From assembly GCA_012842395.1 (NCBI GenBank), contig DUSX01000034.1, forward strand, positions 124,001 through 188,000: 64,000 bases of DNA, written 5' to 3'. Positions 20,916 through 53,022 of the stretch are shown in pieces. A program made the position numbers and the translations under genes. The notes beneath the pieces are model-generated. The model had not been told where the DNA came from. It saw nothing but the letters and a program-made list of their open reading frames with translations, and made no database searches. The DNA comes from Bacillota bacterium. Lineage in GTDB: Bacteria; Bacillota; SHA-98; UBA4971. How positions within the stretch are numbered: the first letter of the stretch is position 1; the number at the start of each line of letters is the position of its first letter.

Positions 20916-21947
20916 TCAACTCGTCTCTTCCTCGCTCGAATCGGCGGGTTTCGACGACGGCAGCTTGAGGCCGGCGAGGTGGCGGATCTTGTCCTCGATC
21001 TCGGCCGCGAGGTCCGGATTATCCCGCAGGAACTCGCGGGCGTTCTCTCTGCCTTGCCCGAGCTTGATGTCGCCGTACGAGTACCAGGTGCCGCTCCGGG
21101 TTATTATGTCGTTGGCCTCACCCAAGTCGAGTATGCTGCCCTCGCGCGAGATACCCTGGCCGTAGATGATGTCGAACTCCGCCTCGCGGAACGGAGGAGC
21201 GATCTTGTTCTTGACCACTCTCGCCCGGGTGCGGCTCCCGATCATCTGCTGCCCCTGCTTTAGCACCTCGACCCTCTTGACCTCAAGGCGTATCGTCGCG
21301 TAGAACTTGAGCGCCCGCCCCCCAGGAGTGACCTCAGGATTCCCGAACATCACCCCGACCTTCTCGCGAATCTGGTTGATGAATATGGCACACGTGCGTG
21401 ACTTACCGATCGCGGCTGTGAGCTTTCGGAGCGCCTGCGACATGAGCCTGGCCTGCAGCCCCACATGAGCGTCGCCCATCTCGCCCTCGATCTCAGCGCG
21501 AGGCGTCAGCGCCGCGACGGAGTCGATGACAACCACATCCACGGCACCGCTGCGTACAAGCGCTTCAGCTATCTCGAGCGCCTGTTCCCCCGTATCGGGC
21601 TGGGAGATGAGGAGGTTGTCCACGTCTACCCCGAGCTTCTTCGCGTACACCGGGTCGAGGGCGTGCTCGGCGTCGATGAACGCCGCGATTCCGCCAGCCT
21701 TCTGCGCCTCGGCTATGACGTGGAGAGCCACCGTGGTCTTGCCGGACGACTCCGGGCCGAATATCTCTATCACCCTCCCGCGAGGCATCCCGCCTATCCC
21801 CAGAGCGATGTCGAGCGAAAGCGCGCCCGTGGGGATCGCCTCCACCGCGAGACGGGCATCGGCCTCACCCAACCTCATGATCGAGCCCTTCCCGAACTGC
21901 TTCTCTATCTGCGACAAGGCCATCTCGAGAGCCTTTTCCTTCTCCAT
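20916..21947 (-). CDS. recA: Recombinase RecA
   Basis: 343-aa ATP-dependent recombinase for homologous repair and SOS induction. Walker [14 protein letters not shown] near residue 65, [37 protein letters not shown] (Walker B region), and loop L2 region [15 protein letters not shown] with [10 protein letters not shown]. The acidic C-terminal tail is present (DSSEEETS). No intein. ATG 21947 has a very strong ribosome site (GAAGGAGGAGG). A possible sigma-A promoter lies at 22180-22208; no GAAC-N4-GTTC LexA box was found near it. Confidence 0.98.
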
Positions 21948-22208: not shown

Positions 22209-22285
22209 CGGGCGATGCCCACGGCGGACCGCGCTCGCCCCGCGGCCAGCGCGGCAAGCCGTCCGGCGGAACGGGCAGTCCAGCT

Positions 22286-22491
22286 GTGTCGCCAGAAGCT
22301 CGCGCTCCCTCTCCGCGAAGGGTCCTCCGCCGGGGGGCCCGGTGCCGTCCCTCTGGGACGGCGCGCTTGCGACGCGCCTCATTCGAACTTGGCGCACGAG
22401 ATAGCCGAATTCTCAACGCCCCGTCGCTGCACGCGCCGGCGTCCCTAGCGGCGTCGGGAACGCGGGCGAAAACTCATGGCGCCGGCCCACC
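22286..22491 (+). repeat. Dispersed structured repeat, copy R1
   Basis: About 206 bp, clearly similar along its length to R2 (52618-52820) and R3 (26087-26307, opposite orientation). Ends form an imperfect inverted repeat (GTCGCCAGAAGCTC versus GGCGCCATGAGTTTTC on the other strand). Inside are hairpins GGCGCG/CGCGCC around CTTGCGA (near 22359-22378) and CCGTCCC/GGGACGG (near 22346-22360), and a weaker GAACTTGGC/GCCGAATTC stem. No protein-coding signal. Confidence 0.8.
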
Positions 22492-22580
22492 TGGTTGCTG
22501 CGCCCCGAACTAAGCCGGGAACGCCCTTCCGCGGCGCTGGAAAACCCCTTGAGTCAGGCCACGCGTGGGAGGGTCAGGGG

Positions 22581-23147
22581 TCACGGGGAAAGCGGGACTG
22601 CAGCGATCGGCCTATAGATCGGCCCGCGGGCCGTGAGCTCGCTTGCCACCAAGTAAACCGTGTCGACCTTCATGCCGCCCTGGAGGGGCGCGCTCGACGA
22701 GAGCCTCTCCGCAAGTGCCCGCACGTTTCGACTGGACCTCACCCTGCCTATAGTGAGGTGAGGTGAGATCTCCCTTCTCTCACCCGTGAAGCCTTCTGCC
22801 TTCATCGCTTCCTCCACAAGCGAGGCAAGCGCCGTAAACTCCTCCCGTCCAGCGCTGACCCCGACCCAGATCACGCGCGCGTCCTGGAGCCGCGGGAAGG
22901 CCCCCACCGGCCCTACTGCGAGCTCGAACCCGCGCACGCCCTCAACGCACGCTTTGAGTCTGCCCGTCAAAGCCTCGAGCCTCGACGACTCTACATCGCC
23001 GAGGAATTTCAGGGTGAAATGAAGGTTCTCAGGCTCGACCCATTTCACATCGGCTCCGCTCTGGGCGAGTCGCCTCTGCAATTCCACAACCTGGGGCCTA
23101 AGTGCTGGGTCGAGAAAGATGGCGATGAAAGACCGAACCGCTTTCAA
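22581..23147 (-). CDS. thpR: RNA 2',3'-cyclic phosphodiesterase ThpR (2H family, LigT)
   Basis: About 188 aa, 2H phosphoesterase acting on 2',3'-cyclic phosphates of RNA. Both catalytic HxT motifs are present: ENLHFTLKFLG near residue 40 and ISPHLTIGRVR near residue 127. The start is the TTG at 23147, with AGGGAGG 7 nt upstream and the family opening (RSFIAIFL) just after. A longer ATG start at 23225 has no ribosome site. It follows the metallophosphoesterase gene by 85 bp and is probably co-transcribed with cinA. Confidence 0.92.
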   Translation of the reverse strand: MKAVRSFIAIFLDPALRPQVVELQRRLAQSGADVKWVEPENLHFTLKFLGDVESSRLEALTGRLKACVEGVRGFELAVGPVGAFPRLQDARVIWVGVSAGREEFTALASLVEEAMKAEGFTGERREISPHLTIGRVRSSRNVRALAERLSSSAPLQGGMKVDTVYLVASELTARGPIYRPIAAVPLSP

Positions 23148-23232
23148 ATCGAGACCTCCCTGGGATTGATAGACCATCTGCTTCGATCTCTTCGACGCCC
23201 GAGTCGTATTTCCTGCTTTTGCCATGTCGTTG

Positions 23233-26086: not shown

Positions 26087-26307
26087 CGTCGCCACAGGTT
26101 CCCGTAGTCCGCGCTCCCTTCAAGCCCGAAAGTCCCGCCCCACGGTCGCCGGTGCTTGCACGATGCACGACAGAGCACGGACGATTCGCTTGGCCTCGCG
26201 CACAGAGGCCGAACGGAGCGCACCGCAAGTGCGCCGTCCCCGGAGGGCAAGGCCGGCGACCCGAGCCGGGGCCCTCAAGAAAAGAGACGAGGAGTCACGG
26301 CGCCGTA
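26087..26307 (-). repeat. Dispersed structured repeat, copy R3 (reverse orientation)
   Basis: About 220 bp filling the space between the FtsH-like gene stop and cinA. On the minus strand it shares CGGCCTTG-CCTCCGGGGACGGCGC with R2 and then TCGTGCAAGCACCGGCGACC further on. The hairpin GCGCAC-TTGCG-GTGCGC keeps the same TTGCG loop as R1/R2 with different paired bases, and the central hairpin becomes GGCCTC/GAGGCC. Ends GGCGCC and GTGGCGAC correspond to the ends of the other copies. Confidence 0.75.
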
Positions 26308-26308
26308 C

Positions 26309-27835
26309 CTAAACCGAAGCCCGTTCGCGGGCGAGACTCGTTTTCACGCTCCTCCCGAGCATCTCTCTGAACTCATCGCCCTCTATCTTCTCCCTCTCGA
26401 GCAGCGTCACGCTGGCCTCCACGAGGACGTCCTTTCGGGATTCGAGGATCTGCCGGACCCTGCGTTCCTGCCCCCTCAGGATCGACGTCATGGTCTCGTG
26501 GTAGAGCTGTCTCGGGAGCTCATCCACGTTCACCACGCCAAGCTGCGACATCCCAGAGCCGATGAGACGCCTTGCGATGTCCAGGGCCTGTTCGAAGTCG
26601 TTCGCCGCACCCGTGGACCGCGTCCCGAAGCGGATCTCCTCGGCCACGGCACCCCCCAGGAGCACCGCGAGCTGGTCCTCAAGCCACTCACGCGTGTACA
26701 GGCACAGGTCCTCCTCCTGAGTCTGCCTGGTATAGCCCAGCGCCTTTCCCCGTGACGTAACGGTGATCGTTGAAACCGAGCCCGGGCGGAGCACTTCGCT
26801 TGCAAGCGCGTGCCCGACTTCGTGGAACGCGATCCTCTCAAGGTCCGCACGGCTCGGCCGACGGTCGAGCCTCTCTCCCATCATGACCTTGTCTATGGCG
26901 TCCCTGAATTCCCTCGCTCCGATCGTGCCCTTCCCTTGCCGCATCGCGAGAATGGCCGCCTCGTTCACGAGGTTCTCAAGGTGGGCACCGGAGAACCCGA
27001 ACGTCTGCTGCGCGATGTCTTCGAGATCGACGTCCTCGCCAAGTGGCTTGCCTTTCGTGTGGATTCGAAGGATATGGAGCCGCCCCTCGCGATCAGGAAG
27101 GTTCACCTGGACGATGCGGTCGAATCTACCAGGCCGAAGGAGCGCGGGGTCGAGCAGGTCGGCCCTGTTCGTGGCGCCTATCACCAGTAGCCTGACGTCG
27201 TCGTACGGGTTTATGCCGTCCATCTCTACGAGCAGCTGGTTGAGCGTCTGATCATACTCCAAATGGCTCGTGTGCTTGCCGCGCTTGCCGCCCAGCACCT
27301 CGATCTCGTCTATGAATATCATGGCGCTGCCGCGCTTCTCGCGGACCGCGCGCGTCCTCGCCGTATTGAAGAGCTGGCGGACCCGTTGCGCCCCCACCCC
27401 AGCGTACATCTCGACGAATTCGGACCCGCTCGCTGCCAGGAACACGCTGCCGGTGTAGCTCGCGGCGGCTTTGGCGAGCAACGTCTTGCCGGTGCCCGGA
27501 GGGCCCGTAAGGAGGATGCCCCGCAAGGGCCGAATGCCCAGGGCCTTGACCTTGTCCGCGTTCACCACGAATTCGAGCGCCTCCAGGAGCTCTCGCTTGG
27601 CGACTTCCTGGCCCCCAATGTCGTTGAACGAGACATGCGGCACCCCCGGGTCCTGCCGCCCTCCGCTCAGCACGTGAAAGCGCTTGCCAACCCCGACCCC
27701 CGGGCCGGCGGCCTGGAGGTACCATAAGGCAACCGCGATTCCCATGAGAAGAACGAGCGGCATTATGTTGTATCCGGAGACGGCGAGGAAGGTTGCCGCG
27801 GCGAGCGACGCCCCCACGCCGATTTCCTTGAGCAT
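26309..27835 (-). CDS. FtsH-like AAA+ zinc metalloprotease lacking the extracytoplasmic domain
   Basis: About 508 aa. Two closely spaced membrane segments occupy residues about 8-40 with almost no external loop, whereas normal FtsH has about 70-80 residues there. The AAA+ domain follows: GPPGTGKTLLAKAAA near 113, MIFIDEIEVLGGKRG, and the SRH ATNRADLLDPALLRPGRF. The M41 peptidase has HEVGHAL near 340 and the distal aspartate in TGAANDFEQA. All catalytic residues appear intact, so it should be active. It probably degrades membrane or cytoplasmic targets with different access rules from canonical FtsH. ATG 27835 follows GAGGG. Confidence 0.88.
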   Translation of the reverse strand: MLKEIGVGASLAAATFLAVSGYNIMPLVLLMGIAVALWYLQAAGPGVGVGKRFHVLSGGRQDPGVPHVSFNDIGGQEVAKRELLEALEFVVNADKVKALGIRPLRGILLTGPPGTGKTLLAKAAASYTGSVFLAASGSEFVEMYAGVGAQRVRQLFNTARTRAVREKRGSAMIFIDEIEVLGGKRGKHTSHLEYDQTLNQLLVEMDGINPYDDVRLLVIGATNRADLLDPALLRPGRFDRIVQVNLPDREGRLHILRIHTKGKPLGEDVDLEDIAQQTFGFSGAHLENLVNEAAILAMRQGKGTIGAREFRDAIDKVMMGERLDRRPSRADLERIAFHEVGHALASEVLRPGSVSTITVTSRGKALGYTRQTQEEDLCLYTREWLEDQLAVLLGGAVAEEIRFGTRSTGAANDFEQALDIARRLIGSGMSQLGVVNVDELPRQLYHETMTSILRGQERRVRQILESRKDVLVEASVTLLEREKIEGDEFREMLGRSVKTSLARERASV

Positions 27836-28029
27836 CTCTGGTTTCCCTCTCCCTCCCCCGCAAGGCAAAGCAGCTCCCGGTCTCGCTTCAGGTTGAGGAA
27901 CGGGCCTCGTCTCCGCGCGTCCGGGACGAGACCAGGGCTTCTCGGCCTCCCGCGGCGAAAAGTCCCACGACGAGTCCCGCCGCCCAAACTCGACCTCGAC
28001 ACGCGAGCGTCGGCGGGCGGTCCCGTGTA

Positions 28030-28638
28030 TCAACGCAGACCACAGCCGGTGAAGGGCGACTGCCAAGGGACGGACGCTGCGCGCTGGTCGCCGCCCACCA
28101 CACCACCCGACGCCGTCGCATCCTTCCTCGGGATCACCTCGTAAAGATAGTGCGCGCCTTCATGCAGTTGCAGGTACACGTTGCGGGAGTCGACGTAAAC
28201 GTTCCACCTCTCCAGCCCCGCTTCTGCGGCAAGGGCATCGATTGCCTTCGCCATGTCCCGGAACGTGCCACGCGCCATCGCTTCTTCCACGGCAAAGCGC
28301 ATTCGCCGGTACGCGTCGGAGAGCTGGCCGGTTCTGGTGTCTTCGATGATGAGGCGAGAGACCCTCCCGGTCGCCCGCGTGATCCCGTCTTGGATTTGCA
28401 GGTATGCGGCCTGAAGGTCCCGAACGTCCTTCAGCTTGACCCGCACCTCGAGGTCAGACGCCGACCCCGTGGCTGGCATGATCTGCCAGGCAGCCACATC
28501 AGCGCGGCTTCGGAGGAACGCTTCCATGGGCCGTTCCACCTGAACGTGGTACGCGGCGATCCGCCCACCGGTGAGGATGGCGAATGTCACGAGGAACGCT
28601 ACTATGACCTTCCTGATATCGAGCCCGAATACCTTCAC
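28030..28638 (-). CDS. Unknown single-pass membrane protein
   Basis: About 202 aa. N-terminal TM (VIVAFLVTFAILTGGRIAAY, residues about 10-30), then a mostly alpha/beta extracytoplasmic or cytoplasmic domain with VRVKLKDVRDLQAAYLQIQD and GLERWNVYVDSRNVYLQLHE. I do not recognise the family. GTG 28638 has GGGAG 5 nt upstream, and a good extended -10 promoter lies just before it. It precedes the FtsH-like protease by about 195 bp on the same strand, so it could be an adaptor, substrate or the missing external domain partner of that protease (inference). Confidence 0.75.
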   Translation of the reverse strand: MKVFGLDIRKVIVAFLVTFAILTGGRIAAYHVQVERPMEAFLRSRADVAAWQIMPATGSASDLEVRVKLKDVRDLQAAYLQIQDGITRATGRVSRLIIEDTRTGQLSDAYRRMRFAVEEAMARGTFRDMAKAIDALAAEAGLERWNVYVDSRNVYLQLHEGAHYLYEVIPRKDATASGGVVGGDQRAASVPWQSPFTGCGLR

Positions 28639-52513: not shown

Positions 52514-53022
52514 CATGCACTCCTCTCCTCTCTTCGGGTCTCTACGGCTCGTTCTCCTTACCAGAAGCACCTTGCCTGCTAGAATATGCAATGGTCGCAC
52601 GCGCAGGACATCTAACGATGTCGCCAAGAGTTCGCGCTACTTTCGGCGGGGCGGTCGGCGGTCCTGCCTAAGGCTATCGGCCTTGTCCTCCGGGGACGGC
52701 GCGCTTGCGGCACGCCTCGTTCGAATTCGGCGCTTAAGACAGCCGAATTCTCCACGCCCCCTCGTGCAAGCACCGGCGACCACAGCGCCGTCAAGAAAGG
52801 GGACGAAAACTTGTGGCGCCATAAGTACTCACGGTGGGCTCTGCGGCACGAGACCACGACGAGCCCGCAACCGTGCAGACTGAATGCGTATGCTTATCGC
52901 GCCGCTCGCGACCCGCGCGGCGCGTGCTGCCCGGACATGTGGGCACCACACACACCCGTGCTCGTGAGTCAGCGCCTGCGATGCTTTCGAGCCTGCTCGC
53001 TCCGCGACCTTTAGTTTTTCTT
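52514..53022. other. Intergenic region between rimO and gdhA
   Basis: Repeat copy R2 fills 52618-52820. The 100 bp next to gdhA hold its presumed promoter, though I see no convincing -35/-10 pair. 52821-53022 is unassigned; minus ORFs across R2 (52612-52857, 52637-52822) are judged spurious. Confidence 0.5.
52618..52820 (+). repeat. Dispersed structured repeat, copy R2
   Basis: About 203 bp, the best preserved copy. Starts ATGTCGCCAAGAGTTC and ends AACTTGTGGCGCCAT, an imperfect terminal inverted repeat. It contains a perfect 9-bp hairpin GAATTCGGC/GCCGAATTC (52723-52750, 10-nt loop), the TTGCG-loop hairpin (near 52699-52717) and AAGGC/GCCTT (near 52670-52685). Roughly three quarters of positions in the right half agree with R1 by eye. 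Confidence 0.8.

Follow-up and report, generated by a model that had tools for sequence, protein, structure and literature searches.

Between recA (20916-21947, minus strand) and a ThpR-like gene (22581-23225, minus strand), whose names we read from their sequences, the 64-kb window (the whole stretch of DNA that was analyzed) carries R1, a decayed full-length copy of a dispersed element at 22280-22494 on the plus strand. R1 was recognized from blastn and profile matches to its family, and its outer ends were set by eye against the consensus ends. Comparison with the copy alignment showed that its left terminal inverted repeat (22280-22298, plus strand) reads CCAGCTGTGTCGCCAGAAG where the consensus has CTAAGTATGTCGCCAAAAG, and that its right terminal inverted repeat (22472-22494, plus strand; consensus CTTATGGCGCCATACTTAG) is decayed and contains a small insertion. 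The core, a branched hairpin module of about 111 nt at 22333-22444 (plus strand), was delimited by a core profile match, by an alignment of core sequences (A1, see below) and by covariation. Within the core, the sequence, A1 and covariation together support a hairpin with a TTGCG loop, GGCGCGCTTGCGACGCGCC (22360-22378, plus strand), and a second, imperfect inner hairpin, GAACTTGGC ... GCCGAATTC (22385-22412, plus strand).

An earlier note on this DNA had described three related copies of about 200 bp in the window. A full-element profile bore this out, matching R1 at 22285-22483 (plus strand, E 9.5e-35), R2 at 52612-52824 (plus strand, E 3.6e-50) and R3 at 26311-26087 (minus strand, E 1.8e-21). 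R2 was placed at 52612-52828 on the plus strand by its profile match and end analysis, and R3 at 26087-26312 on the minus strand by its core match and full profile match, with the outer end set by eye. The outer end of R3 overlaps the TAG stop codon (26311-26309) of a minus-strand FtsH-like gene (ORF 26309-28066). When folded singly, the copies barely exceeded dinucleotide shuffles (z -1.8 for R1, -2.3 for R2 and -1.2 for R3), because all three are decayed.

Consensus anatomy and fold of the element

Forty-five aligned matches yielded a sharply bounded consensus of 211 bp, CTAAGTATGTCGCCAAAAG...CTTATGGCGCCATACTTAG. The element starts with CTAAGT and finishes with ACTTAG within imperfect terminal inverted repeats; the presence of these repeats was evident from CTAAGTATGTCGCCA/CTAAGTATGGCGCCA and from the ends of 123 copies. 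Across 41 copies no reading frame was conserved; none stayed open along its full length in more than 19 of them. Folded end to end, the consensus had a free energy of -115 kcal/mol (z -7.9): the terminal repeats pair, the arms pair next, and the long stem GGGTTGCCGGTG/CACCGGCAACC then encloses two hairpins. The arms vary by subfamily (CTAAGTATGTCGCCA, CTAAGTAGATCGCCA, CTAAGTGTGAGTTCA and CTAAGTGGGGTGCA), and the CTAAGT/ACTTAG ends and the 111-nt core are common to these subfamilies.

A relative of about 120 bp was seen at L188:2133-2254 (CTAAGTGAGGGTGCG...CACCCTCACTTAG), in which, as judged by eye, the ends and the stem GGGTTGCCGGTG are present and the inner hairpins absent. In copies with clear arms, the core was in the forward orientation in 63 and reversed in one. 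Cores inverted relative to the arms were observed at L068:564-720 (by eye) and L110:948-1159; inversion as a regular switch was rejected in view of its rarity (one of the 64 copies with clear arms).

Covariation and decay of the core

To quantify covariation, we used alignment A1, which comprises 108 core sequences from this genome and its relatives. Scored against a structure drawn from the fold of one copy, which favors that structure in the counts, 92.4% of the cells in A1 were paired, as against 37-44% in slid versions, and both-side changes occurred in 19 of the 36 pairs. Shuffled and slid controls were used because the structure had been set from one copy. Doubly changed cells, which are a more telling figure than the paired fraction, numbered 123 versus 35 in shuffles, and the covariation exceeded that of all 500 shuffles. 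Default consensus folding of A1 recovered 9 pairs only, because of gap columns. Compensation within the TTGCG hairpin, as claimed in the earlier note, was confirmed: at columns 46/58, R3 has A-U in place of G-C, a genuine compensatory change. For the central hairpin, the same claim stood in part: covariation there is seen across the family, but GGCCTC/GAGGCC of R3 lies off the pairs homologous to GAATTCGGC/GCCGAATTC in A1, and the central helix of R3 is mostly lost.

The imperfect pairs in the core comprised 133 G.U and 129 A.C cells, and the rare variants comprised 49 G.U and 37 A.C (p 0.24). RNA selection after insertion would put G.U above A.C; the counts were equal, and therefore RNA pairing of neither strand is favored. 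Full-length copies in this genome diverged from the consensus by 3-18%, and thus look like relics. From these observations we infer that an RNA function is not indicated for the inserted copies, which would decay while serving no function themselves, and that the covariation reflects the moving lineages, via selection on the fold or arm-to-arm repair. The earlier suggestion that compensating changes mean selection on structure accordingly holds for the family, which covaries, but not for the inserted copies, in which G.U equals A.C and the strand is random.

Divergence was 5.3% at paired and 9.7% at unpaired core positions, and 8-14% in the arms and terminal repeats. That the core should be more strongly conserved than the terminal repeats is odd and is not predicted by a plain MITE model. 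It is conceivable, albeit doubtful, that the branched core works in transposition as a folded single strand or RNA, for example as a recognition site for the transposase or for some host factor. Such a role would explain why the core outlasts the terminal repeats and survives arm replacement and, if true, would make this a small mobile element recognized through an internal nucleic-acid fold.

Copy number and distribution

R1 alone as a blastn query retrieved 40 other matches in the same genome (73-88% identity), and a 15-bp terminal motif with up to two mismatches occurred 131 times in this genome versus 5 times for the reversed control; such numbers greatly exceed chance. Counted with core model R1 at E 1e-5, which was applied to the element's own genome, its congeners and genus g2, cores numbered at least 130 of 150 scored matches in this genome, 124 in G009, 127 in G010, at least 150 in G012, 33 in G008 and 3 in G011, and 0-9 in genus g2. 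Among other families of the class, one had 101 and 25 cores and a third had none (E 1e-3). Under stricter filters, core-model matches among 299 Bacillota genomes were limited to one class, the host's own. A 20-base core pattern searched across GTDB genomes was found in uncultured Bacillota MAGs, with three single matches elsewhere that look like chance. The element was not detected in the plasmids and phages searched, and no Rfam family matched it. The proposal in the earlier note had hinged on further copies, covariation and scores above the level of shuffled sequence; all of these were found, and copies were present in all five congeners examined and elsewhere in the class. Among the genomes sampled, this abundant mobile repeat is confined to a single class of uncultured Bacillota.

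Within the one genus, G011 had 3 copies and G012 at least 150, a spread that suggests separate bursts or losses. G012 carries copies that are 99% identical, indicating recent movement there. About 15 G012 contigs start less than 100 bases from an element end (e.g. C6:46, C14:72, C27:49, C31:41, C41:41, C43:41 and C49:40), and this assembly was probably broken at recent near-identical copies.

Gene context and insertion sites

With genes called by a simple codon-position GC rule, 70 elements lay between genes, in 48 tandem, 14 convergent and 8 divergent gaps; the proportions were similar to those of the background (153, 37 and 32, respectively), and 13 further elements overlapped a called gene. 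Relative to tandem genes, the element strand was random (22 same, 26 opposite). The 3' ends of genes near an element fell exactly on the terminal CTAA in 22 of 80 cases, for which the chance is 1e-37 under even spacing; the next most frequent distance accounted for 3 cases. R3 meets the stop codon of the FtsH-like gene in the same manner as the genes ending on CTAA, and at L011 the gene in the congener terminates with TAG at the same codon. Most naturally, this pattern means that the CTAG of an amber stop was the target of many insertions and that the stop was restored as TAA. Insertion at an amber stop that the end of the element restores would be a simple, harmless placement at gene ends.

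No element was found at the place corresponding to the L018 insertion in five congeners, nor at those corresponding to the L011 and L016 insertions in congeners, and the genes flanking all three are conserved in congeners. In one congener (L078), another core lay elsewhere in the same intergenic gap. The gap beside L021 was not clean in congeners and by eye seems to hold a decayed short relative.

When congener empty sites were sought using joined flanks, the intergenic DNA was too diverged and only gene ends aligned; nested insertions and one orthologous site served instead. The joined flanks matched unoccupied targets in other family copies, in a different repeat and at the orthologous site. 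In five unoccupied targets, exactly 4 nt lay between the flanks, as read by eye from printed alignments: CGAG, CCAG, CCAG/CCGA/CGAG, TTGG and, at the orthologous site, CTAG. The compared copy therefore lacks CTAG in four of the five. A spacing of five nucleotides is the better fit in one more nested case, and two other cases gave no clear spacing. With ends that read C-TA-AGT...ACT-TA-G, a 4-nt spacing is what insertion into CTAG with duplication of TA would leave. A passage in PMC2170065, citing Tenzen and Ohtsubo 1991, states that IS630 prefers the TA within CTAG, and ISY100 duplicates TA (PMC2170065). Read most simply, the sites reflect insertion into CTAG and duplication of TA, which is the signature of IS630/Tc1-mariner elements.

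A longer target duplication sought outside CTAAG...CTTAG gave no convincing signal (length 2 had z 2.5 among 12 lengths). There was a mild A+T excess immediately outside the ends, and the terminal C and G were conserved as well as the bases inside. Two abutting copies, at L039:2925-3136 and the bases that follow, have the junction CTAT|CTAAG...CTTAG|AGCAGATC, which is at odds with a simple TA duplication. A further copy (L097:1001-1211) sits within a second kind of dispersed repeat, about 280 bp long, which has several copies in G012 (L159:3113-3393, L206, L141 and L203).

Search for a transposase partner

A search of the genus for the IS630 catalytic domain detected DDE_3 fragments only, with no intact transposase bearing these ends; the six DDE_3 matches in G016 likewise had none with these ends. 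In G012, inspection by eye showed no exact end pairs 0.6-3.5 kb apart among the ends listed. Three candidates for an autonomous element were rejected. At L066:2187-3339, two solitary ends 1153 bp apart flank a lipoate-protein-ligase-like gene; they probably belong to two decayed copies and not to a composite. At L188, a dapB-like gene lies between the ends, and at L228 the apparent end falls inside a transposase frame. The partner may be missing from the sequences because the assemblies are drafts, may have been lost, or may be of another type.

Discussion

Among the candidates raised in the earlier note, the MITE-like one gained support from the terminal inverted repeats, the more than 100 dispersed copies, their species-variable positions and the insertion into CTAG. 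We conclude, with a probability of roughly 0.76, that a non-autonomous, MITE-like transposable element about 211 bp long, moved in trans by an IS630/Tc1-mariner-type transposase, gave rise to R1, R2 and R3, all of which are decayed copies. In the mechanism we propose, such a transposase would act in trans and cut between TA and AGT, and the element would insert at the TA of CTAG with TA duplicated, giving C-TA-[AGT...ACT]-TA-G. Insertions would persist where harm is small, in many cases at an amber stop within CTAG, with TAA given back by the end of the element. The hairpin core would be kept in the moving lineages by selection or because one arm serves to repair the other, and the inserted copies would then decay, having no function of their own.

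An unlikely, though credible, alternative is that the element is MITE-like and mobilized by a transposase outside the IS630/Tc1-mariner group, so that CTAAG...CTTAG belongs entirely to the element or the target is handled otherwise (four bases replaced, or no duplication). The failure of our searches to find an intact IS630 partner with these ends, the conservation of the terminal C and G like that of the inner bases, and the departure from an exact CTAG in the compared copy at four of the five unoccupied sites are all consistent with such a mover. However, a 4-nt spacing, TA at either end and the signature at amber stops are a direct match to IS630, and a longer duplication outside the ends was not convincing.

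It is improbable that the family is a structured noncoding RNA or mRNA control element that was copied around the genome with its fold kept by selection. Although the strong consensus fold (z -7.9), covariation above all 500 shuffles and the slid controls, and a core conserved better than the ends would suit such an RNA, departures toward G.U and A.C are equal, the strand is random relative to genes, positions differ from those in congeners where tested, the copies decay (3-18% divergence), relatives have anything from no copies to at least 150, and Rfam matches none of it. The undescribed RNA that the earlier note had offered as a candidate thus finds little support beyond the fold itself. 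The family instead provides a worked case of covariation across repeats that does not have to imply an RNA function: subfamilies covary, and inserted copies decay without strand bias. A REP/BIME-type repeat moved by a RAYT (Y1) transposase, which the earlier note had also considered in its REP form, is highly improbable, since REPs, while likewise high-copy intergenic palindromes, measure 20-40 bp (PMC3733652), and the present element is about 211 bp long, has terminal inverted repeats and targets CTAG.

The MITE-like element described here can be compared with several known systems. The bcr1 repeat of the Bacillus cereus group is likewise a dispersed Bacillota repeat with mobile-element features and a conserved fold; it is about 155 bp long, its ends are unlike those of the element here, and it is set apart by description. 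RUP of Streptococcus pneumoniae, an IS630-related (IS630-Spn1) MITE (PMC2229807), is also small and non-autonomous, with about 108-110 copies that are mostly intergenic, TA insertion and a structured transcript (PMC2229807; PMC3049150). By description only, RUP differs in being 107 bp long and AT-rich with a known partner IS, whereas our element is 211 bp long and GC-rich with a branched core, and no partner was found for it. The Correia/NEMIS elements of Neisseria resemble it in their length of ~100-200 bp, TA-ended terminal repeats, more than 100 copies, stem-loop transcript and reported inversion (PMC2229807, PMC10969869), but, again by description only, they have other ends and another host, and Correia has promoters and RNase III sites. 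IS630 and ISY100 share insertion at TA with TA duplicated and, for IS630, the CTAG preference given in the passage cited above (PMC2170065); they encode a transposase, whereas the present element has none, and its ends match none found. We regard the element as a new MITE-like family of a known kind, the bacterial MITEs, that is probably mobilized by an IS630-type transposase and is set apart from RUP, Correia and bcr1 by their descriptions.
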